Under the pieces are notes generated by a model. That model saw only the letters and a program-made list of their open reading frames with translations, was not told the origin of the DNA and ran no database searches. Both the position numbers and the translations under genes were made by a program. Source: a virus. From it: a stretch of DNA of 42,010 nucleotides. Location of the stretch: IMG/VR virus record IMGVR_UViG_3300013104_000013, positions 1 to 42,010 of that record; one strand, given 5' to 3'. Of the stretch, positions 1,739 to 31,681 are shown in pieces. Positions within the stretch are counted from its first letter, which is position 1, and each line of letters begins with the position of its first letter.

Positions 1739-1761
1739 ATGACTTTAATGATATTTGTCAT
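1739..1761. promoter_or_regulatory. 23-bp dyad site A (ATGACT-N11-TGTCAT), before tail fibre gene
   Basis: This is one of four near-palindromic sites with half-sites six bases long and 11 bases between them. It includes TGATATTTGTCA at 1749-1760, which differs by one base from the operator TGACATTTGTCA in front of the repressor. It fills the 40-bp gap between the collar gene's stop (1776) and the fibre start (1735). Unlike the other three sites it has no clear TAnnTTTG element downstream; the nearest match on the minus strand is TAATTTTA (1761-1768). Its role here is less clear: operator, roadblock, or a weak promoter. Confidence 0.6.
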
Positions 1762-1775
1762 AAAATTAGTTAAAA

Positions 1776-3404
1776 TTATTCATTTTCGTTCATATTGGTC
1801 ACAAACCATGTAGCTAATGATGGCTGCATGTTATTATGAGCAAAACCTTTACCGAAAGTTCCAACTGGCTTATCAAATGGACCAGACCTATTATAACCAA
1901 CCCCTCCCCCATATTGATTGTTGTCGATGCCACCAACTCCCTGCCCCATTACGGTAACTACAGGCAATTCATCCTGTGTTAACGTATGTGTCTTTTCTCC
2001 AAATACTTTTTTGGCCTCATTTAAATTCGGGTCTGTAGGGTCTACTCCCACCGGAGCTAAACCGGTGTAATTAGTGCTGCCGTTACGGCCATCAGCTATA
2101 ACCCATCCTACCCATTTCGTATTTTCCCTACCCAGGCCTGTTGCAATATCGAAGTCAAGATCAAATTCACCAGGGAAAGTTTCGACATACATAATTGTCG
2201 CGTTCTTACCAAGATTGATAACAGGTGCTGGGTTCGGATTGTTACCTATACTTACCGGATCCACATCTGTCTGCAGGTAAATAAACTGAATATCAACATC
2301 TACATCAGGACCATCTAAGCCGGTCACATATACTATTGTTGTGCCGGTAAACCAATATGGGACGGTCTGTATGAATTTTGCATCGTCAACATCGAACTCC
2401 CCTATTTCATCCCCGCCTGGTGTAACTCCAAATTTTACCGTCAAGTCACCAGCAGGACCTCGTTTAGTTATTAATATCTGTTCAAGCAGGGATGCCGACT
2501 TGAATACTCCCGGTACATTAAAGTTGTCCGATTTGTTGAAATGATCTGATCGTTGAGCCATTGGATAAAAAATATTGTCCTCATCTTCCGAAGGGACTGT
2601 TTTATACTTGGTGAAATTATTGTTCGCAGGCTGTATGTCTATGCTCGCCCCAGCGAATGAGTTATCGTCATTGGTTGAAATCTCGTAGTCACTACCTTCT
2701 ACAATCTGGTAGTAGATGTTATTATACTTTACCTGGTCAACAGATTGAATAAAATTAACCTTGTCAATAACCCATGGCGGCAACCCTACCCTGTAGCCAA
2801 GATAGAATTTGAACTTCCTGAATGGCGTAGCGCTCAACAGTGTTGAATTTACGCTTTGATCGACATAAATAGCCCGATTGTTACCAGGCGAATAGTCTTT
2901 TATAGCTGATTCTACCCTGAAATTAAACACTATACCAGTTTCAAATATGACATCTAGGTCATTCACGCTGTTTTTATATTGCAGAAGTAGCGTATTTTCC
3001 TGGGTTTGGCTTACACATATAGGCTCAGACATGATTAGATGCTCATCGTCATTTTCATCCGTATAGCTGAATTCTGTGTAATATTTGCCAACAGGCAAGG
3101 TAATAAACTCAAATTCCAGCTCATAAACCTTGAATGTCTGACCTACTATGACTGTAGGTTTTTCGGACCATGAAGCAGTTCCTATAATGGCATCAGTAAC
3201 AATGTCTCTGAATAGTAGATCCGTCGGTTCAAAATCCGACACTATCTGGAGCCTTAACACATCTGATACCTGCCACTTCTGGAAATAGCATTTAGGGTTT
3301 TGATAACTCAATACCTGGTCAACAGCGAAATTACCGTCAAAGCTATTGTTTATGTTTGACGTGTCAATAAAACGTAAAGGGTTGAGTATTGCTATATTGA
3401 ACAT
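1776..3404 (-). CDS. Tail protein with C-terminal collar-like domain
   Basis: The 542-aa protein begins one base after the upstream gene's stop. The N-terminal 380 residues are beta-rich with no family I recognise. The last ~120 residues resemble phage tail-collar domains: GWVIADGRNGSTNYTG, then VFGEKTHTLTQDELP, a glycine-rich stretch, and a closing N-N-M-Q-P-S-L-A-T-W. In collar domains the segment after the ELP motif usually carries a metal-binding H-N-H; here it reads V-V-T-V-M-G, so that motif is missing. Between the tail-tip gene and the fibre gene, it probably forms the base of the fibre or part of the baseplate. Confidence 0.7.
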   Translation of the reverse strand: MFNIAILNPLRFIDTSNINNSFDGNFAVDQVLSYQNPKCYFQKWQVSDVLRLQIVSDFEPTDLLFRDIVTDAIIGTASWSEKPTVIVGQTFKVYELEFEFITLPVGKYYTEFSYTDENDDEHLIMSEPICVSQTQENTLLLQYKNSVNDLDVIFETGIVFNFRVESAIKDYSPGNNRAIYVDQSVNSTLLSATPFRKFKFYLGYRVGLPPWVIDKVNFIQSVDQVKYNNIYYQIVEGSDYEISTNDDNSFAGASIDIQPANNNFTKYKTVPSEDEDNIFYPMAQRSDHFNKSDNFNVPGVFKSASLLEQILITKRGPAGDLTVKFGVTPGGDEIGEFDVDDAKFIQTVPYWFTGTTIVYVTGLDGPDVDVDIQFIYLQTDVDPVSIGNNPNPAPVINLGKNATIMYVETFPGEFDLDFDIATGLGRENTKWVGWVIADGRNGSTNYTGLAPVGVDPTDPNLNEAKKVFGEKTHTLTQDELPVVTVMGQGVGGIDNNQYGGGVGYNRSGPFDKPVGTFGKGFAHNNMQPSLATWFVTNMNENE

Positions 3405-5414
3405 CTATGTTAAGTTTAGAAGGTTATTGTCTGGGGTTAATAATAATTCGAGTTCTTGCTCTGTATTCCTGGCTATATCGATTGAAGCATTTAGGATAAA
3501 TCCCTTTAGGGTAACTCCTTTCCACACAAAAGATATGTATCCGAAGGGCATGGTGTCAAACAGAATCCTGGCCCCAAAAGGTAAAGAGCATGAAATTGTT
3601 GCCAGGTGGGGGATAAAATATTTTTGAGGTAATGAAGAAACCTGTATGTTTTCGTTCTCCTTAACCCCTACACTATCAATTACTGTTCGTAATTCAGCAT
3701 TCTTTTCCGCGCTGGCAAAGTTTATATAATACCCATCCATTTTGTCCAGGACGCTTCTTAAATAAGCGCCATGCCTTAATAGGTTTTTCTTGGGGGTTAT
3801 TCTTAAATTGTAAGACCCGGCACCAACTCCATCTGGCAATCCGGTTACACTTTGGTATGACGAACCTAAAATAGGCCGGTACAATTCCCCGTCCTTGTAA
3901 CAGTCTATAATGAATGTGTCGTTATCACTGCTTGTGTCGTTGGATTTTTTTGGAGCATCGGTTTTCTTAATGTTATAGTCTACCCGCATTTTTTCTATGC
4001 CGTATTGATCTGCCCTGGCTTCACTTACCCAATCCATTGTAGTTTGAACCCTGGTTATTGGCCATTCCCACTCCTGACCTGAATTGTATTCCTCAAGGCC
4101 GTTCTTTTCGTCTGTATTACCGTCATCATAACCAACCTTTGCTCCACTCGCCATGTACGATTCCGCGCATTTAATGCGGCATTTTGATACCTGGCCTACA
4201 TTGCATATTTGCAAGTTACGGGTAAAGTACGACCTTAATTCAAGTCGAATAGCGTTGTTTTCCACCCCTAATCCTGTGTCATCGATGCTATTTAGCGTCT
4301 GAAATAATTGTTTAAGTGAAAACTGTATTTTGGCGTTCTCAATCTCACGTATAGCGTTTCCAGACGTAAATATTAAGTTCTCCCATGTGGTGGAAAGCAG
4401 GTTAGATATTGCCTCAGTGCCTGGTGTAACCCTGCGCATAACTCTTTTGAAGAAATCAGCAGCTTTTATCCCCTTGCATTTTGACGGGTCTGATACAGAA
4501 TTGTAACCTGCAGTGAAGCTTGTAGATTCTGAAATTGTTAGCCTGTTGCTACCGGTTCCGTTCGTCCTGAAGTAGAGGAACAGCTTCTGGCCGGCAGTCA
4601 TGTTTATGGTCTTATCAAACTCCACGTCATAACTACCACCTACACTTGCTGATGGATCGGAATATATAGTTTCTACAGTAGTATTCGTTTGGTCCTTAAT
4701 TAATATCGCAAACCCAGGGCCACCATTGAACAGGAAGTAACTGCCCTTTACCCGACCTTTTATTGTTACCTGTTGGTTTCTTGTAGCACGCAGAAACCAG
4801 TTTCCACTATCAGCAAATGACGTATCTCCTACAGCCTGAAATGATGTGCTTTGAGACTCAACAAATCCGGATTGAAAAGACCCTGATGTGATAGATACCT
4901 CTGGAATAAACCGATTTTGATTAGGGCCTGACGGAGTAAATATCCAGTCAGCACTTTCATTGAACTTCACGCCGGGAAGTTCCATTGTAACCACGTCATC
5001 ACCTATAAGATCATATTCATATTTGGTGTTTTCATAAGCTTTGATACGCTCAGAAACTCCTGACTGCATAAGTGTAACAATGAATTTGTCTTTTTCGTCA
5101 TCTGCCTTTGAGAAATCTATATCACCGATAAAAGCTGTTTCGTAAGCAAGATTTGACCTGTTTTGCTGCTTAACTTCAAATACTACTCCGGCCTGAACAC
5201 CTTTTGAATAATATGCCCTTCTGAGTATGGAAGCGCCATCCAACACGAATTCTAATGGAAAGCCAAATGTTCTGATCAATCCAAAGTATGATGCGTCACG
5301 TTTGTATGATACTTTAGAGTTGTTATCCCAGCCGTCTGGAGCAAAAACAATCTCTGTAGTCACATTGTCTACTGTGAGGAAATACCGAAAATCATGTCCT
5401 AAAACCTCGTTCAT
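3405..5414 (-). CDS. Large tail-tip/baseplate protein
   Basis: The 669-aa protein directly follows the tape measure gene, with TAATG stop/start overlap at 5412-5416. This is the slot of distal-tail and tail-tip (Dit/Tal-type) proteins in siphoviruses. It has no signal peptide or membrane segment and is mostly beta-strand-like. A middle part (roughly residues 190-290) has the pattern of a carbohydrate-binding beta sandwich. The function is assigned from position and size, not from a catalytic motif. Confidence 0.6.
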   Translation of the reverse strand: MNEVLGHDFRYFLTVDNVTTEIVFAPDGWDNNSKVSYKRDASYFGLIRTFGFPLEFVLDGASILRRAYYSKGVQAGVVFEVKQQNRSNLAYETAFIGDIDFSKADDEKDKFIVTLMQSGVSERIKAYENTKYEYDLIGDDVVTMELPGVKFNESADWIFTPSGPNQNRFIPEVSITSGSFQSGFVESQSTSFQAVGDTSFADSGNWFLRATRNQQVTIKGRVKGSYFLFNGGPGFAILIKDQTNTTVETIYSDPSASVGGSYDVEFDKTINMTAGQKLFLYFRTNGTGSNRLTISESTSFTAGYNSVSDPSKCKGIKAADFFKRVMRRVTPGTEAISNLLSTTWENLIFTSGNAIREIENAKIQFSLKQLFQTLNSIDDTGLGVENNAIRLELRSYFTRNLQICNVGQVSKCRIKCAESYMASGAKVGYDDGNTDEKNGLEEYNSGQEWEWPITRVQTTMDWVSEARADQYGIEKMRVDYNIKKTDAPKKSNDTSSDNDTFIIDCYKDGELYRPILGSSYQSVTGLPDGVGAGSYNLRITPKKNLLRHGAYLRSVLDKMDGYYINFASAEKNAELRTVIDSVGVKENENIQVSSLPQKYFIPHLATISCSLPFGARILFDTMPFGYISFVWKGVTLKGFILNASIDIARNTEQELELLLTPDNNLLNLT

Positions 5415-8400
5415 TAGCTGAAATTTCTACTGATGTAATCACTCATGTTATATACCTGTACTATCGGTGGCTTTGCTTGCTTTTGTCTTGACAAGGCTTT
5501 TTCAATCCTAGATGTACTGTTTCTTTGCTCCATAATAAGCCTGTCAATATCAATATTACCTGGCCCAATAAAAGTCGAACTCAATTGAGGTTTAGCGATC
5601 ATACGCTTTAACTCTGGTCCGCTGATAATTTGAGTCCCGGCAGAAACATGCGTCAATGTTGGTTTATTCGGAGTTAACGAAGTGGAACCGTCAGGATCTA
5701 TCCTCAATTCGTGTTCGTATCCATCACCTACCCATGCAAGCCCTGAATAGTTATCGCTTTTCTTTTTACCATCTTTGTACTGCGGGATTGGTGTAGCCAG
5801 AACTGCGGCTATCTGGACTGCTCCTATAGCGCCCTGTGCAATTGCAAGGGGAATTCCTATAGGCCATCCAAATTCAGCATAGGTTTTCATTATAGCCTCA
5901 GCAGTACTCATCCCAATGTTGGCAATACTCATAGCTTTTTGGAACCTAGCTTTTCTTTGATCTATCTCCCTTTGACGCTTCTCTAAAGCTTCTTTATTTG
6001 CTAAAGCGGTAGCTTCTATGACAGCAATTTTATCGGCTTTCTCCTGCTCTGTGAGTAGACTGTTATTTACATTGTCAATTTCTATCTGTTTACGCTTCTC
6101 GCCCAGATCAATTTCATTTTGAATTCTGTTCTTGTCGTTTTCAAACGTACCCTCTACTATAGATACTGCCAGATTGGAAATCTCTGTTTGAAATTGTTTC
6201 TTTTTGTCTGCAAGTTGCTTGTCAACTTCCGCACGTCTTTTGGCGTTTTCTTCCTCAGTTTTTGCTACCTTATTATTGTCCGCAATCAACCCTTTAGTGA
6301 CATATTCGCTTGCCTCAAGTTTAAGTTTAGCTAGTTTCTTTTCATATTCAGCGCGCTGATCAACACTTAACGACGAAATATTTAATAGTTCTTCAGTTTG
6401 TCTAATTTCCTCATTGATATATTTAAGGAAATACTCCTTTTGAAGTTGTAGCCTTAATTCTTCATGCTGCTTTTCGCTAATAGTTCCGTTGTTATACGCT
6501 TGGTTTAATAATTGGAGTTTTAATGATTCTTCATTATTAATTGCATTTAGTACCTCTTGATTAGCGCGAAGCCTTGCTTTCATCTCGTCGGATAACTGAT
6601 CTTCCATCAGTTTTTGGAGCATTTCTCTCCCCTCGGCCCTAACATCCTGCAACTGCGTTTGCCTCTGTTCTTCAAGAAAAACTATCTTGTCTTTATTTCC
6701 TTTGGCTTTCTTTAGTTCTCGATCATAATTAATACGGACAAGTTCTTCACTCTGGTTAATGTAAACATCTAATGTGGACAATCTTAACTCGTAAGATTCT
6801 TTTTCATTGTCTATAATCCTTTTTGAAGCATCTTTAGTGCGTTCTACCCGTTCGCGCTGAGCATCAAACTCCGAAGTGTCAATTTTCCCTTTTCCCTTTT
6901 TATTTTTACTGTCGAACTCCCCGCCAAAAAAGTCTGCAAATCCTGATGCTTTAGCAAGTTTTGCCGCTTCAGTCTGAAGCTTTTCAAATATCCCCTTTAG
7001 TGTATTTTGTTGGTTTTCTGCAGCCGTAGCCAGCTCCTTTGTCCTCTCTTTGATTAAAGTCTTTGTGACGCTATCATCCTGAGTAAATGCAGCTTTTAAT
7101 CGTTGTGCAAAGCTTAAATTTTCAATTTTTTTATCTCCAGGAGCCCCTGTAATTGCCAAATCCTTTTCCCCTTGGGCTCGGACCTTTTCGGCTTCAAAAG
7201 CACTTTCTGCGGCCTCTTTTAGTGCTAATTGTGCAGCTGCTTTAAGCAGGGTAACTTTTATGTATGCTTCAGCATTCTTATTTAAAGCAGCCTCAGCATC
7301 ATTTAGGTTTGTAACCTCACCAGTTGTTTTTCCTATCGTTTCATTATATTGATTTAATACCTTTTCTTTATCTAGAAATCCTTCCTTAGCTAGCTTTATG
7401 TTAACTCTGAGTTCTGAAACATTCATTATGGCTTCCTTGACCCCGCTATCTTTCATAGCTTCGCCTAACAGCCTTTGTCTTTCGGTAAACTCATCCAATG
7501 CTTTTGTACCCTGAAATGTTGCCGATATAAAGTCGCCAATTTCTTTTCCGTAAACAGTTAGCAATGTAATCCCTACACTTAGAGCGGTGCCCCATGAAAA
7601 CACAGACGCCGCCAGCTGCTTAAATAAGCCAGGCACTTTCTGACCTTCTGCCCTCATCGCTTTAATTTCCGCCTGAGTCTGCTTTATTTGGTCAAAGAAT
7701 ATAGGCAAGTTATTGGATAGCGCCATAAATCCTGTCTGTACGCTATAAGTAAAGGCAGGGAACTCTCTTGTTAATTGGTTTACTGAGTTGGTCAACCCAT
7801 TAAATCCACTTTTGTAGTTGCCTACATTTCTTTGATTCTTACCAAGAACTGCATCAATTGCTTTTAGTCTAGCGTCCAGTTCAGATACCGATTTCGCCGC
7901 TTCTTTAAACTGCTTACTGTTCTCACCGTAAATTATCGCTAAATCCTGCGCCCTTTTACGTTGCTTTTCCAGTTCATTTGAAAGTATCGTATACGGGCGG
8001 CTATTATTTGCTATCTGCTCTGCTGTTTTTTTATAGGCCGCCTGCTTCTTTTCTTCGGCTAATATTTCTTTCTTGCTTGCGTTCTCAAGCTGCTTGGCCT
8101 TTTTTTCTTGCAGTTGCTGCTCTTTTTGTATCTTCCTTTCAAAATCTGCAGCCGCCTTTGTTCTAAAGTTTGCCAGCTTATCCTCCGCCATCATACGCTC
8201 AGCTGTCAATTTCTTTAGGCGCTCTTCCAGGATAGCGATTTTTTTCATCAATTGTTCAAGATCCGAAAACGTTTTAACGCTTGCCATCGATGCCCCAAAT
8301 TTCTGTGCGTTAAGTATGTTCTGTACCAGGACTTCATTAGTTGCTTCCAGCGCTTTCTCAAGCTTTGCAATCTGGGCATACGCCGCCTCACTAACTAATT

Positions 8401-8425
8401 CATTAATTAACTGTTCGTTGGCCAT
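5414..8425 (-). CDS. Tail tape measure protein
   Basis: At 1003 aa this is the longest gene in the genome and lies where a tape measure is expected. The N-terminal 200 residues and residues ~520-800 are long charged coiled coil rich in K, E, Q and A. Two hydrophobic segments follow the usual pattern: a short one near residue 275 (FSWGTALSVGITLLTVYG) and one near 865-890 (GWPIGIPLAIAQGAIGAVQI). The C-terminus with GLAWVGDGYEHELRI resembles other Bacteroidota phage tape measures. With about 1.5 angstrom per residue the tail would be around 150 nm (inference). The start overlaps the upstream gene by 23 bases. Confidence 0.9.
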   Translation of the reverse strand: MANEQLINELVSEAAYAQIAKLEKALEATNEVLVQNILNAQKFGASMASVKTFSDLEQLMKKIAILEERLKKLTAERMMAEDKLANFRTKAAADFERKIQKEQQLQEKKAKQLENASKKEILAEEKKQAAYKKTAEQIANNSRPYTILSNELEKQRKRAQDLAIIYGENSKQFKEAAKSVSELDARLKAIDAVLGKNQRNVGNYKSGFNGLTNSVNQLTREFPAFTYSVQTGFMALSNNLPIFFDQIKQTQAEIKAMRAEGQKVPGLFKQLAASVFSWGTALSVGITLLTVYGKEIGDFISATFQGTKALDEFTERQRLLGEAMKDSGVKEAIMNVSELRVNIKLAKEGFLDKEKVLNQYNETIGKTTGEVTNLNDAEAALNKNAEAYIKVTLLKAAAQLALKEAAESAFEAEKVRAQGEKDLAITGAPGDKKIENLSFAQRLKAAFTQDDSVTKTLIKERTKELATAAENQQNTLKGIFEKLQTEAAKLAKASGFADFFGGEFDSKNKKGKGKIDTSEFDAQRERVERTKDASKRIIDNEKESYELRLSTLDVYINQSEELVRINYDRELKKAKGNKDKIVFLEEQRQTQLQDVRAEGREMLQKLMEDQLSDEMKARLRANQEVLNAINNEESLKLQLLNQAYNNGTISEKQHEELRLQLQKEYFLKYINEEIRQTEELLNISSLSVDQRAEYEKKLAKLKLEASEYVTKGLIADNNKVAKTEEENAKRRAEVDKQLADKKKQFQTEISNLAVSIVEGTFENDKNRIQNEIDLGEKRKQIEIDNVNNSLLTEQEKADKIAVIEATALANKEALEKRQREIDQRKARFQKAMSIANIGMSTAEAIMKTYAEFGWPIGIPLAIAQGAIGAVQIAAVLATPIPQYKDGKKKSDNYSGLAWVGDGYEHELRIDPDGSTSLTPNKPTLTHVSAGTQIISGPELKRMIAKPQLSSTFIGPGNIDIDRLIMEQRNSTSRIEKALSRQKQAKPPIVQVYNMSDYISRNFS

Positions 8426-9014
8426 TTGGTGTATTTTCTAAATTAAAAGCCTTGATATCTTTAACAAACTCCATAACTGAGGTTGTTTTTGGGTCGATTG
8501 CGAACTGGTTGAACCGGGAAATCTGCCGGATTAAACCATAGAAATCTTCTTCTGTGGTTTCGCTTTCCGCTCCTTTTATCTTTGAATATTCGGCCTCAGC
8601 CTCCTGCTTCTGCAGCACGTATTTTTTGGATGATGATACAACCCTTCTCAGGTCGTCATTCAACGACTCAGGGGTAAACTTGTACCTGAACCCCATGCTA
8701 ACAAGCGCATCACAAATACGCTTATCATATGAATGGCTTAAAAACTTTAAGCATTCGTTAATGACATTCAGCTTGTGGCCCAAAACGGTAATTTCCTTCA
8801 CCAGGGAGAACAAATGCGCGCTTCTGGGATTGCCGGAAATCGAAGTGTATTCTTCAAATATCCTTTCCCAGATAGATTGCAGGTCAGCTTTAGAAGTTAA
8901 AGCTGATTTATTCTCAGCATACAGCCAGTTTAAATCACCGTGTACAACTATTTTAATGAAGTTGTACAATGGAAGCTCACTGCATGAGTTGTATGTTTTA
9001 CGCGTTCTTATCAT
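8403..9014 (-). CDS. Putative tail assembly protein upstream of tape measure
   Basis: This 203-aa soluble protein overlaps the following tape measure gene by 23 bases and the preceding gene by 4 (ATGA). Its place just before the tape measure is that of tail assembly chaperones (G/GT), and its helical, charged sequence fits. I saw no slippery heptamer and no -1 extension, so the usual programmed frameshift appears absent or replaced by this single gene. No family motif is recognised. Confidence 0.5.
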   Translation of the reverse strand: MIRTRKTYNSCSELPLYNFIKIVVHGDLNWLYAENKSALTSKADLQSIWERIFEEYTSISGNPRSAHLFSLVKEITVLGHKLNVINECLKFLSHSYDKRICDALVSMGFRYKFTPESLNDDLRRVVSSSKKYVLQKQEAEAEYSKIKGAESETTEEDFYGLIRQISRFNQFAIDPKTTSVMEFVKDIKAFNLENTPNGQRTVN

Positions 9015-9457
9015 GTGAATTTAAGCCCTGTTTTTCCTGTAATGTATTTCTGAACTGCTGGCAATATTGTGTCAAGGGAGTAAGTCTTTTTACTATCCTT
9101 GGTTAAACCGAATATTGTATTTCCGTATTGCTTTTTAAGCTTATCTGACTTTGAGTCCTTACTATCAAACTCGAATGTGGTTTTTGTCACATCCAGCGTA
9201 AAACCATTGTAGAAATCTTTTTTGTCAGATAAATCCACGTATCCAAAGCCAGGCTGTGGGTTTTTCCTGTTTTTGTACTGAGCGTAATACTTGTTTTTAT
9301 ACTCCCCTATCTTGTTGCCATCTGCCTTAAGCCCAAATTGAAACATCTGAAGCTGGTTAAGTAGTATTGCATCTGCTTTGGTCCTTACGATAATATCCGG
9401 GACAGCCGATCTTAGGTCAACTGTTTTAACTTTATCTAAAAGGCCCTGTATTGTCAT
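9011..9457 (-). CDS. Hypothetical tail-module protein
   Basis: A 148-aa basic protein, the first gene after the promoter/dyad at 9474-9511. A Lys/Tyr/Asn-rich middle part (GEYKNKYYAQYKNRKNPQPG) precedes a short acidic-basic stretch. It overlaps the next gene by 4 bases. The position suggests a tail completion or minor tail protein; the sequence itself does not identify it. Confidence 0.5.
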   Translation of the reverse strand: MTIQGLLDKVKTVDLRSAVPDIIVRTKADAILLNQLQMFQFGLKADGNKIGEYKNKYYAQYKNRKNPQPGFGYVDLSDKKDFYNGFTLDVTKTTFEFDSKDSKSDKLKKQYGNTIFGLTKDSKKTYSLDTILPAVQKYITGKTGLKFT

Positions 9458-9473
9458 TGTTGTAAGCTTTAAT

Positions 9474-9511
9474 CAAAGATAGTAATTTATGACAATATTG
9501 ATATATGTCAT
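9474..9511 (-). promoter_or_regulatory. Late promoter for tail genes with 23-bp dyad site B
   Basis: The minus strand carries TATCTTTG (9474-9481), a match to the Bacteroidota -7 element TAnnTTTG, 17 bases before the ATG at 9457. Seven bases upstream of it is the dyad ATGACA-N11-TGTCAT (9489-9511), which includes TGATATATGTCA at 9499-9510. No TTTG -33 box lies at the usual distance, so the dyad may replace it as a regulator-binding site. It follows a terminator (9929-9958), so the tail genes probably have their own transcript. Confidence 0.65.
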
Positions 9512-9580
9512 ATTGTTATTATCGTATCTAGACACAGAACCCATGGAATAACATTTCTCCGAAGTTTTATATATTTGGGA

Positions 9581-9925: not shown

Positions 9926-9928
9926 CCA

Positions 9929-9958
9929 AAAAGCCCCTACTCATTGGCAGGGGCTTTT
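9929..9958. terminator. Bidirectional rho-independent terminator
   Basis: A 10-bp stem, AAAAGCCCCT (9929-9938) with AGGGGCTTTT (9949-9958), and a 10-base loop. Both flanks supply T-runs on the outgoing strand. It sits between the stop of the plus-strand gene (9925) and the stop of the minus-strand gene (9960), so it can end both the moron transcript and the head-gene transcript. Confidence 0.9.
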
Positions 9959-9959
9959 C

Positions 9960-10142: not shown

Positions 10143-11077
10143 TACGCTACAGTTACAGCTATACCTTCGTAACCTTCTACACCATTGCCGGCCAGAACGC
10201 TAGGGGCCGCTGTGTTTACAACAAATGGACCAGCTGCGTTGTAATCCGGATCGGTAGTATCCAGTGTAAACAGGAATGAGCCTGTGTTGGCATCCTTAGC
10301 TACAGAAGTGATTGTTACAGCATTTCCCAGCCTGGTAACCACAAAATTTGTATCGTCAGCCAGTTCATCACCATAAATAGAGTACAAATCAGTACCTGCA
10401 CAACCAGTAGTGGCCCTTAGCCTGAATACTCCTGCAGCGCGTGGCGCAACCAGTGAGAACACGATGTTCTGCAGGCCGTTGATAGCCATCAGATCAGCTA
10501 CATTCAATGAGATAAAGCCCAAGCCGCTGTTAATGTAGGCAGGATTGAAGCTCAACCTGTATGCAAATAAAGCAACGTTAGCTCCGTCATTGAATTTAAA
10601 CGGTGCGGCATAAAAGTAATCCAGAGGAATACCTTTTAAGCTTGTGCCAACCTTTGTGCCAAACAGGACACCTGCAGCGTCAAAGCCAATATAACGGTAG
10701 TTACCACTATTGAACTTCTGAAGCGCGTTGTTGATGCAGTTCCCGCCTTTGGTGTATTGAAACGTAAGGTTGTACTTTCCATCACGTACCGGCACCTGGG
10801 CGCCAAATCCAAAGGTTTGTAAAACTACGTCCTCTGAGTTGTCCGTCATTGTAACAGTCTCCGGTAGAGGGTAAATCCTTAACGCTGGGTTATCATTGTT
10901 TACAGCAGCAAGAATTGCAGCAAGAGCCGCATCTTTACTGGCCAGTTGAGCTTCGGTTAACTCGAAGGAAGCAGGGACAAGAAATCCCCCTACAACGTTC
11001 TTCAATGTCAACGAGCAATCAGCAATACCGGTATTACCACCGGCCGCTGAACATACTATGTTATTTAAAATGCTCAT
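10142..11077 (-). CDS. Probable major tail tube protein
   Basis: The 311-aa protein is rich in A, G, N, T and V with little charge, as expected for an abundant self-assembling beta protein. It lies after the head-tail connector genes and before the tape measure. The last ~90 residues (from TGCAGTDLYS) read like an added Ig-like or beta-sandwich domain. Three features support the call: position, composition and length. No diagnostic motif is visible. Confidence 0.65.
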   Translation of the reverse strand: MSILNNIVCSAAGGNTGIADCSLTLKNVVGGFLVPASFELTEAQLASKDAALAAILAAVNNDNPALRIYPLPETVTMTDNSEDVVLQTFGFGAQVPVRDGKYNLTFQYTKGGNCINNALQKFNSGNYRYIGFDAAGVLFGTKVGTSLKGIPLDYFYAAPFKFNDGANVALFAYRLSFNPAYINSGLGFISLNVADLMAINGLQNIVFSLVAPRAAGVFRLRATTGCAGTDLYSIYGDELADDTNFVVTRLGNAVTITSVAKDANTGSFLFTLDTTDPDYNAAGPFVVNTAAPSVLAGNGVEGYEGIAVTVA

Positions 11078-11087
11078 GTTTTTAGAA

Positions 11088-11666
11088 TTAGATTGCCGGT
11101 TTAGGGCAATAGTTTTCGTTAATTTTTAATCTCAAGTTCTCAATCTCTATGCAATCAACCCAATCATTGAATATATTTGCCTCGTTCCCAAATAAGCCCT
11201 GTTTACCCCAGTAATACCGATATGTAGCTCTGTGTGGTATCCGTGTTGGTGAAACAAGCTGAAACAAGTCGCCTCTGTACCCTATCTGCCTCATCAACTC
11301 CAGGTAAATAGGAGTTAACACTGGCTTAAAGTTCAGTAAGTCTCTTTCCTTTGCCGTGTGGTTTGAATCATCACAGGCCCTTATAACAGCCATGTGAATC
11401 GTAGCTTCACCATAAATACCAACATCAACGCCCCTACTCATGGGCATATCCAGAAAGAAAGCCACCAAAGGATATTTTTTAAACTTTGCAGTGGCTCCCT
11501 GGTCATATTGAGTAAGCGTGTTAATGATCTCCAATGGATGTCCGTACTCATAATGCACACCAGTTATACCTGCATCAAATTCCTGCAACTTCGGCAACAA
11601 TTTGTCCGAAACAGCCTTAACTATTGGAATGAATTCCTCATGCAGATATATTTCCTGTAGTTGCAT
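11088..11666 (-). CDS. Putative tail terminator/completion protein
   Basis: A 192-aa soluble protein between the connector and the tail tube gene, the usual place of a tail terminator (gpU-like) protein. It starts with a short helix (EFIPIVKAVSDKLLPKLQEF) followed by mixed alpha/beta sequence, consistent with that fold. It overlaps the preceding gene by one base (TAATG). Assigned by position. Confidence 0.5.
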   Translation of the reverse strand: MQLQEIYLHEEFIPIVKAVSDKLLPKLQEFDAGITGVHYEYGHPLEIINTLTQYDQGATAKFKKYPLVAFFLDMPMSRGVDVGIYGEATIHMAVIRACDDSNHTAKERDLLNFKPVLTPIYLELMRQIGYRGDLFQLVSPTRIPHRATYRYYWGKQGLFGNEANIFNDWVDCIEIENLRLKINENYCPKPAI

Positions 11667-12208
11667 TATATGTCGTGGGTGTTTTTAAAGTAATAGATCT
11701 CACTAACTGGGCAATGTCGCCACCAATACACATAACACCTCCAATATGGCCGTACGTAATAAGGGTAGGTATCAGTTGAAAGATCAAATAACCGGGCTTT
11801 TACTGCCATTTTATTCCATGCTTTCACCTGTTTACCCCAATTTGATGCAGGCACACTGTTTTCATTCTTAGGCTTAACTTCTCCCGGCCTTGACGTAAGT
11901 GTAGTTAAATTATCCATGTACCAATAGTATACGTAACACACTATCATACGCTTCAAATCTGTTTCATCGCGCAGGGCCAGCCATTTTGGGTCAATAGGCA
12001 AATAAGTAGGGGGATTGGTTGGTGGATCCACTGGTACCAGAACCAGCCCCTCTACAAATTCATTCGACAATTCTTCCCCTAACAGAAGCTTCAAAAACTC
12101 TGGTTCATATTCATCTATAAACCATTGCAAATTTTCACGTGTACCTGGATTGTCCAGCCCCGCTATTAGTTGCTCACCCTTAAAGTCTGTGTAGGTTATG
12201 ATTGACAT
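11666..12208 (-). CDS. Putative head-tail connector (gp6-like)
   Basis: This 180-aa protein follows the capsid cluster. It is helical in the N-terminal half (NLQWFIDEYEPEFLKLLLGEEL) and very rich in Trp and Tyr at the C-terminal end (YYVRPYWRCYVYWWRHC). Similar small proteins after the capsid gene in Bacteroidota phages are annotated as head-tail adaptors. Position and the N-terminal helical pattern support that, at moderate confidence. Confidence 0.55.
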   Translation of the reverse strand: MSIITYTDFKGEQLIAGLDNPGTRENLQWFIDEYEPEFLKLLLGEELSNEFVEGLVLVPVDPPTNPPTYLPIDPKWLALRDETDLKRMIVCYVYYWYMDNLTTLTSRPGEVKPKNENSVPASNWGKQVKAWNKMAVKARLFDLSTDTYPYYVRPYWRCYVYWWRHCPVSEIYYFKNTHDI

Positions 12209-12217
12209 AGCTGTTTT

Positions 12218-12619
12218 CTATTTTCTGTACAACAGATATTTATTATGCACACTGACCTGTGTCCCGGTTGTCGTTGTAATGACTCGCCAGTATAACGCTG
12301 GGTTTGAAGTAAGCGAAACCACAGCTGTAGCGGTTGCATCCGTCAAAGTGTAAGTGTTGTACGTAAACCATTGCTCACCTGAAACTGTTGACAGCTTGTA
12401 CTGAAGAACGATAGTTCCGGCAACAGTGCCTGAAGTTTTCGAAATGTCGTACTTAAATGTAACGGCTGATCTGGATTGCGGGATGGTTACCGAAACCGTG
12501 TCTGTTGCAGCGTTTGTAAGGGTTGTTGGTCCTTTGATCCTGCCTGCATAATCCTGCGCATTCACCCCCACTATGGAGGCGAACATGAGCGCAATTGATA
12601 ATATCAAGACTTTATACAT
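12218..12619 (-). CDS. Small beta-rich protein with Sec signal peptide in head module
   Basis: I chose the ATG at 12619, not the longer frame to 12757, because the upstream 46 codons are the second frame of a real small gene (12612-12785). The 133-aa protein starts with a clear signal peptide: M-Y-K, a hydrophobic core (VLILSIALMFASIVG) and V-N-A|Q. The mature ~110 residues are Thr/Ser/Val-rich beta strands. A secreted product from inside a capsid operon is unusual. It could be a surface or periplasmic protein made late in infection, or a decoration protein whose N-terminus only resembles a signal. Confidence 0.7.
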   Translation of the reverse strand: MYKVLILSIALMFASIVGVNAQDYAGRIKGPTTLTNAATDTVSVTIPQSRSAVTFKYDISKTSGTVAGTIVLQYKLSTVSGEQWFTYNTYTLTDATATAVVSLTSNPALYWRVITTTTGTQVSVHNKYLLYRK

Positions 12620-12785
12620 CTTTCTTTTTGTTTTTAGGATTGGGTTTAACTTCTGTTTTTTCGGTGTCTTCTGCGGCCTCAACAACACCACTTTTGATAC
12701 ATGCCAAAGCAGTTGAGTCAGGCATATCAATGATATCCCCTTCTTTATAGTTGCCAAACTGCTTTTTAATTACCCTAACTTCCAT
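12612..12785 (-). CDS. 57-aa conserved-type head-region protein
   Basis: The frame M-E-V-R-V-I-K-K-Q-F-G-N-Y-K-E-G-D-I-I-D continues to a TAA at 12612-12614, overlapping the start of the next gene. The opening (basic strand, GNYKEGDII, then a M-P-D-S-T-A helix) resembles small phage proteins found next to capsid genes, and the tail is K/P/N-rich. It starts 2 bases after the capsid stop. It is too short for a 60-codon cutoff and easily missed. Confidence 0.75.
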   Translation of the reverse strand: MEVRVIKKQFGNYKEGDIIDMPDSTALACIKSGVVEAAEDTEKTEVKPNPKNKKKDV

Positions 12786-12787
12786 AG

Positions 12788-14095
12788 CTATACCTCCGCT
12801 GAAATTGCAGCTTTGATCGTTGCAATATCATCGTAGATGAACGCTTGCTGATCAAGCTTTTTAACGAATGCATGGAACCGACTTTCTCCCAGGATAACGA
12901 ACTGATTTTTTATAAAATCATCGTTAATCCAGCCAATTTTTACAACATATCCAACATAGTCAGAGACATTGTATTTGCTCATATCTGCAACGAATATCTT
13001 TCCAGCCGGAATCATTTCGTCAGGAATGATAGTTACACCACCGATAACAACACGATTAAATAAACTGGCTTGAGGATATAAAGGCAAACCTCTTTCGTCT
13101 TTAGCTGAAACAAGTTCAGTGAAAAAGTCAACAGGATTAACCATAACCAAAGATGGCAGGTAAGGCATTTCGTCTTGATAGTTATGAGTAACATAAACAT
13201 CAGTTAAAGATGCATTTACAACATCCATAAAATTAGGGAACCTAACTTTATTCGCCATTGAACCAGCCACAAAAGCACGACCGTATAAAGTGGCTCCCTT
13301 AGGTTCTTCACCAGTTCCAGTTCCAAACAACACAGCACGCTGTTTTTTAATGTCGTGCTTATCCCTCAGATAGCCTAAAGCGATTGATTGAAGTCCAGGA
13401 ATATCTTTAACCGATTCTTCAGTTAAATGCTCCCATGCTGCAATTTTTACCGGAGTTGCGTACCTGGTTTCGATCTTGAAATCTATTTGAGGCTTAGGCG
13501 CGCCCTCAGCAACAAAACCGTAATCACCATCTTTAGGGATACTTTCTGTATACGGATACGCTGCAAGCGAAGTGTTAAACCTGTTTACAAGTTCGTTTAC
13601 AATTGTGTTCCTCAGGTTCACTCTAGAAGGAGGGGCCATTTGAACACCTACCAACGCAGGTATACCATCAGGGTTAGTTGCAGATCCGGCGGTTCCGATA
13701 ACGCCTGCAGCGGTAACGGTTGCATCACCAGCGGTTAATGCGCCTACGGCTTTAACTTCAAACGAAACTGTACCATGCCCGGCTTTACGAAGTCCTTTGA
13801 TAGTTTCAAAGTTTTCAACAATAAAGTCGTTTACAGCTTTTTCAAGGCTTGTTGTTGCCGATGTTCTTCCAGATTCAACAGCCTGGTTGGCTTTCTCTTT
13901 AGCTTCGTTAACTTCGGTTTTAAGGCCTTTGATTTCTTCTGCCTGAGCTGTAATTGTTTCATTTAAAGGCTCTAATGCCTTATCAAGGGATTTCTTAGCC
14001 TGATCGGCTTCGTAAGTTCTTTTATCTTCTGCATACTGATCCCTTTCAGCCGCAGTCATCTTACTTAATTCATCTTCTGTTTTGTACTTAAACAT
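12788..14095 (-). CDS. Major capsid protein, HK97 fold
   Basis: The start is taken at the ATG complementary to 14093-14095 (M-F-K-Y-K-T-E-D-E-L), one base after the protease stop, giving 435 aa; a longer frame from 14161 would overlap the protease. Residues ~10-95 are a charged coiled coil, the delta/scaffold domain removed by the protease in HK97-type heads. The remainder has the usual HK97 pattern, including an E-loop-like region, a conserved FVAEGAPKPQIDF segment and TVKIAAW-type strand (here TPVKIAAWEHLTEES). The neighbouring portal and protease confirm the assignment. Confidence 0.92.
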   Translation of the reverse strand: MFKYKTEDELSKMTAAERDQYAEDKRTYEADQAKKSLDKALEPLNETITAQAEEIKGLKTEVNEAKEKANQAVESGRTSATTSLEKAVNDFIVENFETIKGLRKAGHGTVSFEVKAVGALTAGDATVTAAGVIGTAGSATNPDGIPALVGVQMAPPSRVNLRNTIVNELVNRFNTSLAAYPYTESIPKDGDYGFVAEGAPKPQIDFKIETRYATPVKIAAWEHLTEESVKDIPGLQSIALGYLRDKHDIKKQRAVLFGTGTGEEPKGATLYGRAFVAGSMANKVRFPNFMDVVNASLTDVYVTHNYQDEMPYLPSLVMVNPVDFFTELVSAKDERGLPLYPQASLFNRVVIGGVTIIPDEMIPAGKIFVADMSKYNVSDYVGYVVKIGWINDDFIKNQFVILGESRFHAFVKKLDQQAFIYDDIATIKAAISAEV

Positions 14096-14096
14096 C

Positions 14097-14921
14097 TTAG
14101 TAAAGATTTGGGTTAAAAAATTTGTTAATTGGCTGAGTGTCTTTCGACGGGTCATATACATCTGAAGGTGATTGCTCGGACTTCATGTTGTTTTCAAGTG
14201 TTGGGGTAACATAGTTGCTACCGAATAGTACTGCTGATATCTCCAAAAGCTTAGCTTCCAGTACAGCCCAGAAGTATCCAGTTTGGTCTGCTACTTCATT
14301 ATTTACTATAAGAGGATAATACTTATCCCAGTTCTCCTTTTCCTCTTTATAGTACTTCTCTTCAGAATTAATGCAAAGGACAACATCAACATATTGCATC
14401 CCTACTGAGTGGTTATTAACCCACCCGTTTTTATACTGGTCGAACATCAAAGGATTCCGTGATGACTTAACTAGGGCATCTGCGATCAAAGCCTCCGTGT
14501 CACCTTCGAAACTTTCACCTAAGTCTTTCCACGGCATAGTTTTGACATAAACCTTTGAGTCGCTCGCTATAACCTTGTCAAACTCACGCTTATGCTCCTG
14601 TAGAAGAACCTTTTTATTTGAAGCTTTAAGCGTTCTTTTCCAAAGTCCATCAACATGGAGATCCCTATGGCTATCCAATAAGTTGGTTGTATTGCCTACT
14701 ACTCTAATTTTAAGCTCAGTAGGGTTATCCAATACAGCGTCATTACCTTTAGTAACTACTCCCTTTTCTGTAACATCGTCAAACAGCAGGCAATCAAAGC
14801 CATCTGTAAACTTTACAGCCGACTTTTTCAACATAAGAAGATTAGACTTCTCATCTTTCATAGCCTTGAACATTTGGCTCTGGCTAGGAAAACTTTTATT
14901 TAACTCATGGCAAAAAATCAT
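14097..14921 (-). CDS. Prohead maturation protease (S78-like)
   Basis: The 274-aa protein shows three landmarks of HK97-type prohead proteases in order: a His segment (VLLQEHKREFD, His110), a Ser segment (NNHSVGMQY, residues 169-177, Ser172), and LLEISAVLFGSN at 225-236, which corresponds to the family's ExSxVxxPA region. It lies between portal and capsid, as usual. It should cleave the capsid delta domain during head maturation. The start ATG overlaps the stop of a 45-aa gene (ATGA). Confidence 0.85.
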   Translation of the reverse strand: MIFCHELNKSFPSQSQMFKAMKDEKSNLLMLKKSAVKFTDGFDCLLFDDVTEKGVVTKGNDAVLDNPTELKIRVVGNTTNLLDSHRDLHVDGLWKRTLKASNKKVLLQEHKREFDKVIASDSKVYVKTMPWKDLGESFEGDTEALIADALVKSSRNPLMFDQYKNGWVNNHSVGMQYVDVVLCINSEEKYYKEEKENWDKYYPLIVNNEVADQTGYFWAVLEAKLLEISAVLFGSNYVTPTLENNMKSEQSPSDVYDPSKDTQPINKFFNPNLY

Positions 14922-15055
14922 TTCTGTATAGGTTTATTTACATACTTCATCTTATCCTTCACGGAATCCTTTATAGGGCCGTCAGGCAGCTTGTCTTTAA
15001 TTTGTTGCAGCTTGTCCGTTGTTGTTGCTGGTCGTTGATCTTTTTGCTGGCTCAT
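14918..15055 (-). CDS. 45-aa protein between portal and protease
   Basis: This short frame (M-S-Q-Q-K-D-Q-R-P-A) begins inside the portal's 3' end in another frame and stops with TGA overlapping the protease ATG (ATGA at 14918-14921). The overlap bridges a 75-base gap that would otherwise separate the two genes, which supports real translation. The product is highly charged and Lys/Gln-rich with no motif I know. Confidence 0.55.
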   Translation of the reverse strand: MSQQKDQRPATTTDKLQQIKDKLPDGPIKDSVKDKMKYVNKPIQK

Positions 15056-16283
15056 AATCTAGTTCCGTAAATTCAGTGTCCAAAAAGCTGTTTATCTCTT
15101 CCTCTTTTACCCCAGCTTTCATAAGGTTTAATAGCGTATCAGATTTGATTTTATCTGTCTCCGCCTTACGTTTAGCAAATACCTGCATAAACGAAAGATG
15201 GTCCCAGGACATCAGTATTGTTTTGTTTTTATAACCGAAACGCTTGTTAAAGGAATTCATCAATTGCTCTCCGGCCGGGCTAAGTGTATACTCTACATGG
15301 GCACCTCTTGCCTCCTGTTGGTTATCATAGGTTGCTCCTTTAAGACTGGCTTCCAGAACATCGCGAGGTATTCCGAACTCAGACCCTATCTTAAAATAGT
15401 CGTCCCAATACGATGCATCTAAAGCCCCTATAACATCTGCTCTTTCAACAAATCGCTTTATATCGATCATTGACTTAACAGCATGAACGACTTTACGACT
15501 ATTCATTTTCGATTCAATATCTTGCTTCTCTTGATCGCCTAGTGGGGTCTTTGTGACATCTTTAGGGTCTGCCTGTCCGGCGACCATGTACTTACCTAAA
15601 TACCGAACATTTATGTTTTTGCTTTTTACACTTGCCTTTGAGTTAGAAATTATTTCATAAAGCGCATCAATAGTACTGCGACCCTTGAACCAGTTGCCTG
15701 TACCGTTAGATAAGTCTGACACATGCGAAATCTTACCCCATTTTATTTTCTCTTGAGCTGTATTACCTTCGTAAGTGTAAGTTATCTCCTGATCGTTTAT
15801 CATCCTTTCGGCTTCCTTTGAAAATATCAGTCGATCTTTGTATTCCCTCAACTTATCTGGGAATTGAATTTTGGACGAATCAAGGAAGTATAGCTTGTTG
15901 CTTTCGCTTAATACGCTGTCGCTGTCTACATAACAATAAGCATTACCAATCATCTTCCAGAACATATAATCCCATAGAAATTGGCTCCGCTGCTGAAAAG
16001 GATTAGGATTATTGATTAAATCAAGAAATGGATCATCTTCAATAGATTTCCCTTTCCTGTACACATAAACCTTTCCTAAGGAAAACATATCGCATTGAAG
16101 TTTGAATACCTTCAGTACAGCCGGATTATTGAATACTACTCCTATTTTAAGGGCGTCCGTGGAATACTGACCGAAGTCTGAATTAGGATCAAGTATAAAG
16201 TAGTCGTCAGGGCCTGTAACACTTTCGTCTAAGTATTTATTTAACCCAAATATTGAAGCTCCTAAATTCTGAAACCAGTTCAA
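14997..16283 (-). CDS. Phage portal protein (HK97 type)
   Basis: The 428-aa protein follows TerL and has the portal pattern: an N-terminal segment with FNNPAVLKVFKLQCDMFS, DPFLDLINNPNPFQQRSQF near residue 84, FWKMIGNAYCY near 108, and a C-terminal helical region. Portals form the dodecameric vertex through which DNA enters. The last 60 bases overlap a 45-aa gene in another frame. It is preceded by a promoter-like box and dyad site C. Confidence 0.92.
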   Translation of the reverse strand: MNWFQNLGASIFGLNKYLDESVTGPDDYFILDPNSDFGQYSTDALKIGVVFNNPAVLKVFKLQCDMFSLGKVYVYRKGKSIEDDPFLDLINNPNPFQQRSQFLWDYMFWKMIGNAYCYVDSDSVLSESNKLYFLDSSKIQFPDKLREYKDRLIFSKEAERMINDQEITYTYEGNTAQEKIKWGKISHVSDLSNGTGNWFKGRSTIDALYEIISNSKASVKSKNINVRYLGKYMVAGQADPKDVTKTPLGDQEKQDIESKMNSRKVVHAVKSMIDIKRFVERADVIGALDASYWDDYFKIGSEFGIPRDVLEASLKGATYDNQQEARGAHVEYTLSPAGEQLMNSFNKRFGYKNKTILMSWDHLSFMQVFAKRKAETDKIKSDTLLNLMKAGVKEEEINSFLDTEFTELDYEPAKRSTTSNNNGQAATN

Positions 16284-16303
16284 ACCATTTATAATTTATA
16301 ATT

Positions 16304-16333
16304 CAAATATATGACAATTATGCTATTTGTCAT
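16304..16333 (-). promoter_or_regulatory. Promoter-like element with 23-bp dyad site C, before portal
   Basis: The minus strand has TATATTTG at 16304-16311, 20 bases before the portal ATG. It abuts the dyad ATGACA-N11-TGTCAT (16311-16333), sharing one base. The right half contains TGCTATTTGTCA (16321-16332), two changes from the repressor operator. No -33 TTTG is found at the normal spacing. It probably gives an extra, regulated entry point for head genes after the terminase pair. Confidence 0.65.
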
Positions 16334-16368
16334 AAAAGTAAGAATTTTAATTTTAATTGTGCAAACGA

Positions 16369-17763
16369 TTATCCACCTATTAGGATTTCTTCTCGCTGCA
16401 GGTGCTGAGCTATATATCTGGCAGGGTCCAGAAGGTGATTGTTTAAATCTTCCGGTTCTTCCTGAACAATTCCATAATTGTCTACCTTCCTGCTGTAGTT
16501 TTCCTGTTCGTAGGCTAAATTCTTACTACAGGAAGTGTAATAAACCGTTATATCATTAAGCAAATCAATCCCATCAATTACTGAGCCTGGTGGTTTCAAT
16601 GCGGCTACTGCATAATCCCACCCTGCCGAACGGAGTGCCAGTATCTTTGATGTCCTGTTATTATCGCAAATGACAAGCAGATCTTTGCTTATTCCGAGTT
16701 TGCCAAACAACCATGAAACAATACCGTTCTTTTCTCCGTTCTCGTCCGGTGTGTTTATTTGAGCGAGCTCAACATCTGACATTTTTGCTCTCCACTCGTT
16801 TTCACTTAAGTAGTTTAGCTCATGAAGGTATAAGGCATTATCATAACACTTGCTCTCTATGATGCCCCAAGGATGGACTGAACCCCAGTCACAGCCTATA
16901 ATTTTAGTTGCGTGTATTTTGAGATATTCATCGTAACTGATTTCTTTAAAATGAAATATCCGGTTAGGCTTCTCTGCCTTTAAACCTAGGCCGTATACAC
17001 TCCAATTGAAAGCAGACGCACTTTTCTTATGTTCATTCTCCCGACACCTGGACAATTCTTTCAATTGCTTAGGAGTGAAACAAAGCGGGTTGTTAACTAT
17101 GTCATATTCTTTTGCCTGGTTTTCATTTAATACGCCAGAAATAACAATGTCACACATGGATACTGGCTGATAAGATAGTATTTTGCGCTTTTGCTCTATT
17201 GGGCAGAATGGGTTGTCCTTAAACGTGCTATGAAGTACAATGGCTCTTGGATCTTTCTCCAGGTCGTCGGACCAATGCCCCATCTTTGGATTTAAGTCCA
17301 GAATAACGAAATCAGTTGTTCTTTGATCTATCTGGTCAAACGTGTCCTTACTTATCTTGTAAGGTTCGTTAAACCATGCGCCATCTTGTGTAAGACCATG
17401 TACGGTATTTGCATCATCAGTGCCGTGAATTTCAAATGTGCTATCAGTATCATATGTGAAAATTGACTCTGTTTTATTGAATTCTTGGTTTACTTTGTAT
17501 CTATTAGTTCGCTTAAGGTGTTTTAAGGTGTCATTTAAGACCGTTTTTTTGCAATCTGTTTTAGTATCACGCCATACTGTCATCCGTTTATTCAGGTTAG
17601 ATCTACAATATGTGTCGTAAACGTCAATCAGCGAAGTAGTTTTACTACTCCTGGATGATCCCTTAAGTATGAAATATCTATATTTCCTGGACCCGTCATC
17701 GTTAACTTCATTGATGGCAGCCCAGAGCTGATGAAACACAATTGTAACTTCCAATTCGTTCAT
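16369..17763 (-). CDS. terL: Terminase large subunit
   Basis: The 464-aa packaging motor has a Walker A GSSRSSKT (35-42), a Walker B-type GAWFNE (128-133), a coupling motif HSTFKDNPF (178-186), and nuclease acidic residues in GCDWG (Asp292), VICDN (Asp367) and NHLLDPARY (Asp446). Arrangement and length are typical of phage TerL. It overlaps TerS by one base (TAATG). It cuts and translocates concatemeric DNA into the prohead through the portal. Confidence 0.95.
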   Translation of the reverse strand: MNELEVTIVFHQLWAAINEVNDDGSRKYRYFILKGSSRSSKTTSLIDVYDTYCRSNLNKRMTVWRDTKTDCKKTVLNDTLKHLKRTNRYKVNQEFNKTESIFTYDTDSTFEIHGTDDANTVHGLTQDGAWFNEPYKISKDTFDQIDQRTTDFVILDLNPKMGHWSDDLEKDPRAIVLHSTFKDNPFCPIEQKRKILSYQPVSMCDIVISGVLNENQAKEYDIVNNPLCFTPKQLKELSRCRENEHKKSASAFNWSVYGLGLKAEKPNRIFHFKEISYDEYLKIHATKIIGCDWGSVHPWGIIESKCYDNALYLHELNYLSENEWRAKMSDVELAQINTPDENGEKNGIVSWLFGKLGISKDLLVICDNNRTSKILALRSAGWDYAVAALKPPGSVIDGIDLLNDITVYYTSCSKNLAYEQENYSRKVDNYGIVQEEPEDLNNHLLDPARYIAQHLQREEILIGG

Positions 17764-18497
17764 TACTCATCATCTTCGTTTGGCGGAATAACACGTATGT
17801 TCAGTATAGGAGAATCAGGTTTTTTCTGACTGTTGTCTTTTTCATACTTACCATTGATCTTCAATATCTTTTCCTGGGCATCCAAAGCAGAATACCCCTC
17901 TACTTCCAAGCCGTGTGGACCATACTTAAGCTTTTTGATTTTACCCTTCTCCTTGTCGGCTACAAGAAGGTTAACATCCAGCTGCATTTCCTTAGCCAGG
18001 TACTTATCGCTTTCCATTATGCGGTAAGCCTTTGGGTTTCGTTCAAGTTCGATTTCCATCCTGACAACCTGAGCGCGTTCAAAATTCAGGCCCTCTTGAA
18101 ACTTATCAAATGCCTCTCCCTCAAAACCCATCCTATCGCAATACATTTCCTCCCTGAGTATGTATTCGTTTTTCTGTTTAATGACATCTGCCAGCGGAAC
18201 CTCAATCAAATCAGTCTTAACCACCTTTACCGGTACATAGTAATCGGTTAAATTAGATTGGGCAATGTCGCTGACAAGCTTAACAACTTCGTCACCGGTC
18301 AAAACAACCTCTTTCAGCTTTCCTTCTATGTAGGCTTTTACATGAGGTCTATTGTAGATCTCGTAACCTTGCTCTTTCGCTCCCTTTGCCGGGCAACCTG
18401 CCTTTCTAGCCGCAAATGCTTTGACTGGCTTAATTAGGTAAGCTTCTGCAAACAGCAGTTCTTTATCACTTAGCTTTATTTGAGTTGTTTCATCCAT
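17763..18497 (-). CDS. terS: Terminase small subunit
   Basis: The start is set at the ATG complementary to 18495-18497 (M-D-E-T-T-Q), not at a TTG 13 codons upstream that would lie inside the promoter. The 244-aa protein has a Terminase_2-type N-terminal HTH: LSDKELLFAEAYL, AARKAG near residue 34, and a downstream helix with RPHVKAYIEGKL. A central coiled region follows. It selects phage DNA for packaging and couples to TerL, which begins on its stop codon. Confidence 0.88.
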   Translation of the reverse strand: MDETTQIKLSDKELLFAEAYLIKPVKAFAARKAGCPAKGAKEQGYEIYNRPHVKAYIEGKLKEVVLTGDEVVKLVSDIAQSNLTDYYVPVKVVKTDLIEVPLADVIKQKNEYILREEMYCDRMGFEGEAFDKFQEGLNFERAQVVRMEIELERNPKAYRIMESDKYLAKEMQLDVNLLVADKEKGKIKKLKYGPHGLEVEGYSALDAQEKILKINGKYEKDNSQKKPDSPILNIRVIPPNEDDE

Positions 18498-18533
18498 CAG
18501 CTTCAAAATGTGAAGTATTGTGAAGTAATTGCT

Positions 18534-18570
18534 CAAATATACAAATTATGATTAATATGATATTTGTCAT
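18534..18570 (-). promoter_or_regulatory. Main late promoter with 23-bp dyad site D, before terminase
   Basis: TATATTTG lies at 18534-18541 on the minus strand, about 37 bases from the TerS ATG. Six bases upstream is ATGATT-N11-TGTCAT (18548-18570), with TGATATTTGTCA at 18558-18569. No TTTG -33 box is seen at 17-21 bases, and the dyad covers that position. This marks the boundary between early/middle genes and the late operon, so it is the best candidate for the late switch. Confidence 0.7.
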
Positions 18571-31630: not shown

Positions 31631-31681
31631 CTATAATTACATAACTATTTGATAATCAGTGCAAAAAATATTAATTTACAG

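Follow-up and report, generated by a model that had tools for sequence, protein, structure and literature searches.

The question raised by this locus is whether four similar 23-bp dyads at the late-gene junctions of a phage genome are the sites of one regulator and, if so, which protein binds them and with what effect. The window, that is the whole stretch of DNA analysed, is a 42,010-bp IMG/VR virus record, and the phage is temperate and of Bacteroidota type. A sequence-only reading had reported the dyad ATGACA-N11-TGTCAT at four places, and all four were found as described, each with 11 bases between the half-sites.

All four late sites are on the minus strand. Site 1, ATGACAAATATCATATTAATCAT (18548..18570), deviates from the pattern at two positions and is located between NinG (18579-19169) and terS, which likely starts at an ATG at 18497. 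Site 2, ATGACAAATAGCATAATTGTCAT (16311..16333), is an exact dyad before the portal gene (14997-16283), and site 3, ATGACATATATCAATATTGTCAT (9489..9511), also exact, precedes a tail gene (9011-9457). Site 4, ATGACAAATATCATTAAAGTCAT (1739..1761), has one mismatch, so that the reported one to two changes apply to sites 4 and 1, respectively. It ends 3 nt before ATGAGTAAGCACG, and the gene that follows, here called the MSKHD gene, continues past the left end of the window. This gene had been read as a tail fibre, which we could not uphold; its counterpart in the nearest relative (1061 aa) matches no PHROG. The right half is followed by AAA in three of the four sites, as had been noticed for most of them.

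Three sites are followed by a -7 box of the TAnnTTTG type, also on the minus strand: TATATTTG at 18534..18541, 6 nt after site 1; TATCTTTG at 9474..9481, 7 nt after site 3; and TATATTTG at 16304..16311, which abuts site 2 (a distance of -1). No -7 box is present downstream of site 4. The reported lack of a -33 element was also borne out, in that none of these three sites has TTTG or TTG 15-25 bases upstream of its box.

The four dyads are not a product of chance and score far above random expectation. A matrix built from them gives the sites themselves 26.6-29.6 bits, the next place in the window 9.8 bits, and the best place in 100 Markov random sequences 18.2 bits. The bare pattern, ATGACA-N11-TGTCAT with at most two mismatches, occurs five times against 2.1 expected, and 3 of 100 shuffles reach five; the fifth match, at 25571, has an interior unlike that of the late sites. 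The sites had been described as far from chance, which is true of the full matrix, but the bare pattern is only modestly unusual. The signal is thus carried by the full 23 bp.

Related phages were collected by searches with terminase, portal, head and tail proteins, which gave more than 200 viral loci. The window dyad was absent from all relatives fetched first, and this absence initially appeared to refute a conserved regulon. That impression was overturned once the junctions themselves were read. In the nearest relative, G001 (L004, IMGVR_UViG_3300031911_000637, which appears also as L076), the junctions hold ATGCTATTTGGCATAATTAGCAT and variants of it, the same 23-bp design with another half-site. 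G001 has four strong sites, located before NinG-terS, the portal gene, the tail gene and the MAKHD gene, the last being the counterpart of the window MSKHD gene. The same four junctions are occupied in G024 (IMGVR_UViG_3300031133_000416), with a fifth site at 40462 near the start of a long leftward gene set that includes late genes, and in G005, an isolate prophage (IMGVR_UViG_2639762777_000001, isolate genome IMG 2639762777). The shorter records L058 (12.4 kb) and L162 (11.5 kb) have three and two sites, respectively, at the corresponding junctions.

Together, the window phage and these five relatives have 22 equivalent sites. The junctions in common, wherever the records cover them, are those before terS/NinG, the portal gene, the tail gene and the MxKHD gene. 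Equivalents of the portal site and of the pre-tail site are found in all five relatives (G001, G024, G005, L058 and L162), and those of the pre-MxKHD site in G001, G024 and G005. The counterpart of site 1 precedes NinG in G001, G024 and G005, whereas in the window it lies between NinG and terS. Each phage has its own half-site, the six being GTCAT, AGCAT, GTAAT, GTATT, GTATA and GTTAT. The proposal of a late regulon is therefore much stronger with the relatives than from the window alone, but in a changed form: the 23-bp sequence is not conserved, while position and architecture are kept and the half-site is specific to the phage.

A few further observations were made in these records. The window portal gene starts with TTG (16281-16283), as do those of L058, G001 and G005, at TTGAACTGG or a close variant. 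In G001 (L076 numbering) a weaker inverted pair, ATGCTAAATAGAAT, is found at 11350-11363, upstream of an 840-aa gene at 11496, and is possibly a fifth site of this phage. At the pre-tail junction, relatives that lack the dyad (L085, L239, L247, L249 and L250) show a TTAACTTTA-type box near the start codon. A prophage search of genome contigs gave one match, a distant terL in Elizabethkingia, and a portal search gave no match in 395 Bacteroidota genomes or in 321 genomes of the family of Elizabethkingia.

The change of half-site between relatives bears on whether the sites could serve a regulator of the host. The late genes of some phages need host proteins, and this counts in favor of a host regulator. 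Six related phages with six half-sites at the same junctions are not what such a regulator would be expected to leave behind, as it should keep one sequence, and we regard this explanation as very unlikely.

Reading the sites side by side revealed a third, middle half-site, which had been overlooked. The layout is h' N4 h N4 h, i.e. three 5-bp halves of which the left is inverted and the middle and right are direct. The first spacer is N4 in five phages and N5 in G005, and the third half follows in direct orientation 9 bp on. In the window the middle half is ATCAT or AGCAT, direct relative to the right half. Of the 110 middle-half positions in the 22 sites, 99 match the consensus derived from the outer halves, and in each of the phages the match is better than in every slid control. 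Generic three-half searches without thresholds were swamped by AT-rich noise. A strict three-half search returned only the phages with tripartite sites, along with AT-rich false positives in L205, L206, L213 and L242.

The middle half is also informative with respect to RNA. If the sites were hairpins acting as processing or attenuation signals, the outer halves should pair, and they can do so with -5.8 to -6.3 kcal/mol. These hairpins are weak (z -0.9 to -2.2), and the middle half plays no role in them and yet is conserved. Chance palindromes, the other way to dispense with a binding protein, are excluded by the matrix scores against random sequences. Taken together, we find hairpins or chance most improbable.

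The promoter context of the sites was compared across the six phages, tolerating small variants of the -7 box. A -7-like box is found near 18 of the 22 sites and the full TAnnTTTG near 17, the eighteenth being the box at the G024 site at 20064, with one mismatch. TAnnTTTG mostly starts 6-9 nt below the site; the other boxes nearly abut or overlap the site end, and the box of the portal site abuts in L058 as in the window. Exact 6+6 dyads just above TAnnTTTG, counted over the relatives, peak at N11 (52 seen against 24 expected), with N12-N14 also somewhat raised. Since the -7 box is placed at -12 to -5 (PMC6847099), a site 6-8 nt above it covers about -43 to -19. Six of the 22 sites have TTTG or TTG with a spacing of N19-21 to the -7 box, always at site positions 7-10; the remaining 16, including all those of the window, have none. 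The missing -33 element had been offered as a sign of activation; it is a weak argument, because Flavobacterium promoters in general show little conservation of this element (PMC6847099).

The MxKHD site departs from this arrangement. In the window phage and in G005 it lacks a -7 box and in G024 the box is poor, and the site ends 3-9 nt before the start codon. Such a position suits an activator badly.

The immunity region, where the candidate binders are encoded, is visible in three phages, namely the window phage, G001 and G024; the records of G005, L058 and L162 stop short of it. Three proteins with HTH matches, encoded close together, are common to all three: a LuxR/GerE-tailed regulator (window 30950..31516, minus strand, phrog_10300), a CI-type repressor with an XRE N-terminus (31649..32488, plus strand, probably starting at the ATG at 31682) and a small HTH_17 protein (30421..30717, minus strand), excisionase-like by a weak match.

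The C-terminus of the LuxR-tailed protein is a GerE domain related to those of NarL, GerE and DevR in the PDB. Its scores against PF00196 (GerE) are 23.6 bits in the window (cut-off 23.5), 40.9 bits in G024 and 17.6 bits in G001, the last below the cut-off. The AlphaFold model of the protein (pLDDT 55) is too poor for a fold search. A profile search of 43 + 12 records (a few counted twice, about 50 in all) found the LuxR-tailed protein to have relatives in just two of them, G001 and G024; the remaining records either are devoid of tripartite sites or do not extend to the immunity region. This co-occurrence covers three phages that share ancestry. It is nearly as clean for CI, with one further partial match, and so does not by itself separate the two proteins. 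As a predictor of tripartite sites elsewhere the LuxR-tailed protein fails: phages 6H, Ingeline_1 and Mea-Yong924-1 encode relatives of it, and a scan of them found no tripartite sites.

Another phage protein could also be the binder, such as the small HTH_17 protein or a product of the early operon whose DNA-binding nature has gone unrecognised. HTH_17 proteins are encoded at similar places in the window, G001 and G024, and a large number of the small early genes match no family, which leaves room for such a binder. Nothing positive links either to the sites, and the HTH_17 match in the window is weak (E 0.002), so we consider this alternative unlikely. A small XRE protein encoded before the G024 late genes, with a relative in G001, was rejected as binder, since ten small early ORFs in the window included no counterpart of it. 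Three binders had been named from the window sequence. The LuxR-tailed protein fits best and CI is a possible one, but the second XRE protein (33551-33889) fits worst, as no relative of it was found in G024.

The intergenic region between the CI and LuxR-tailed genes holds a further element that had been overlooked, the inverted pair TTGACAAATGTCAT (reverse complement ATGACATTTGTCAA) at 31588..31601 on the minus strand, built from the late half-site. It lies in the spacer of the promoter of the LuxR-tailed gene, between the -33 TTTG at 31607-31610 and the -7 box TATATTTG at 31579..31586 (both minus strand, spacer 20). The pair scores 17.8 bits; the late sites reach 17.7-19.8 bits on the same scale and the next place 11.8 bits. 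About 0.0001-0.0002 such pairs are expected by chance in 132 bp. It can be a site at which the LuxR-tailed protein represses its own gene or an operator of CI.

This pair also favors a rival account, in which CI would bind the sites as operators and, in the lysogen, keep the late operons silent or prevent read-through into them, like the stoperators of mycobacteriophage L5. The pair of late half-sites in the window falls within the promoter of the first early gene. A CI operator would be expected there, and the position, being one that a repressor would take, counts against an activator. The MxKHD site, against the start codon and lacking a convincing promoter in three phages, would suit a repressor as well. 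Phage-specific variation is known for stoperators (PMC6550527), and in the CI proteins (window 31649-32488; L076 2511-3275; L150 1284-2069) the C-terminal part is kept, while the N-terminal DNA-binding part diverges strongly. In 6H and Ingeline_1, moreover, the late region contains an imperfect repeat of a dyad located near the CI gene. However, the CI/LuxR intergenic region of G001 and G024 does not contain the late half-site, though CI must act there, and this makes CI the less likely binder. Nor is there a strong site on the rightward early genes of G001 and G024. There are only 4-5 sites per phage, and most are followed closely by a -7 box. Overall, repression by CI appears rather unlikely to us.

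Both activation and repression had been offered as the function of the sites. The distribution of the strong sites in G001 and G024, which are confined to operons carrying late genes and absent from the CI/LuxR promoter, favors activation, and we think that the late operons are probably activated by a phage protein. As to its identity, the chances that the LuxR-tailed protein binds the late sites seem about even. The full reading that we favor, a late regulon with tripartite sites through which a phage-encoded regulator activates the late operons, with the LuxR/GerE-tailed protein as the leading candidate, is given a probability of roughly 0.47. In brief, the sites would mark the starts of the late operons, and a dimer would occupy the inverted pair and probably make a further contact at the third half, at about -43 to -19. 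The bound regulator may then help the host RNA polymerase at a promoter with a good -7 box and little else. Made early after induction, it would switch the late operons on. The putative DNA-reading helix of the LuxR-tailed protein varies among the phages, as does the half-site, and in the window phage the protein may in addition bind within the promoter of its own gene, at 31588-31601.

Dyads of other kinds were seen in more distant Bacteroidota phages. A second class, TTATTTAGAATNATTCTAAATAA and variants, lacks the middle half-site and is found before TAnnTTTG boxes in L090 (8349), L092 (8349), L072 (9648), L094 (8618), L138 (5832 and 8532), L041 (1642) and L140 (5306), in several cases at the terL-portal junction. 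Cellulophaga phage Ingeline_1 (L236) has a 24-bp palindrome, AATATACATAAATTTATGTATATT, at two late-gene junctions (4445 and 32695), one copy perfect and one with one change, and a half-conserved copy at the start of a CI-like gene (14779). In phage Mea-Yong924-1 (L237), TTAACACGCTGTCCTTTTT occurs five times (13079, 17588, 19623, 23760 and 28680). The copies differ at no more than two positions, most of them lie shortly before annotated genes, and the repeat is probably a promoter or regulatory element of this phage. Flavobacterium phage 6H (L235) has a GGTAAAAC...GTTTTAC-type dyad at 34109 and 45801, which occurs near a CI-like XRE gene as well as where a leftward block of genes begins.

More broadly, we tentatively suggest a GerE-domain late activation system of Bacteroidota phages, with promoters of three half-sites, in which all late sites of a phage change their half-sites together and the four positions are kept. 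If so, related phages would carry late switches that are mutually unreadable, a late-gene counterpart of immunity specificity. The group offers a ready-made regulon: each phage has four promoters, six half-site specificities are represented, and the candidate proteins are few, so that the switching on of late genes in these phages becomes a question for gel shifts and reporters. If several sites and their regulator change in concert within a single group of phages, they would also lend themselves to studying how the specificity of transcription factors evolves.

In the open literature we found no late-gene regulator of Bacteroidota phages and no such late regulon, and the comparison is therefore with other groups. 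Phage P2 has four late promoters that share one dyad, serve separate late operons and depend on one phage-encoded activator, the zinc-finger protein Ogr/Delta (PMC3931495). The window phage is similar in having one dyad common to several late promoters. In contrast, the P2 dyad is TGT-N12-ACA, whereas here it is ATGACA-N11-TGTCAT with a middle half, and here the half-site changes between close relatives. Phage Mu also has four late promoters (lys, I, P and mom), with the site of activator C next to or over the -35 region (PMC4461284). Number and placement are alike in the window phage, but the site is another one and the promoter has a Bacteroidota-type -7 box. Searches of the window, G001, G024 and G005 for Ogr_Delta (PF04606) and Mor/C (PF08765) had no hit at E 1. 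In its working the arrangement resembles the late regulons of P2 and Mu, but with different sites and no such proteins found it belongs to neither family. The stoperators of mycobacteriophages are asymmetric 13-bp sites of phage-specific sequence, bound by the immunity repressor and present in up to about 30 copies per genome (PMC6550527). They resemble the late sites in being repeated along the genome with a sequence that is specific to the phage (six half-sites in six phages), but the late sites are 23-24 bp, consist of several halves, number 4-5 per phage and are tied to the starts of late operons. Another parallel is ComA, a regulator of the GerE/NarL fold that recognizes an inverted pair with an N4 spacer (N5 tolerated) and a downstream direct element near the promoter (PMC4797271). 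ComA reads TTGCGG hexamers with a direct spacer of 5 nt and a direct period of 11 (or 10) bp, whereas the late sites consist of pentamers of other sequence with a direct spacer of 4 nt and a period of 9 bp. The inverted pair with N4 (N5 in G005) and a downstream direct element is nevertheless the arrangement of all 22 sites in the six phages, and the leading candidate binder in the window phage is likewise a GerE-domain protein.
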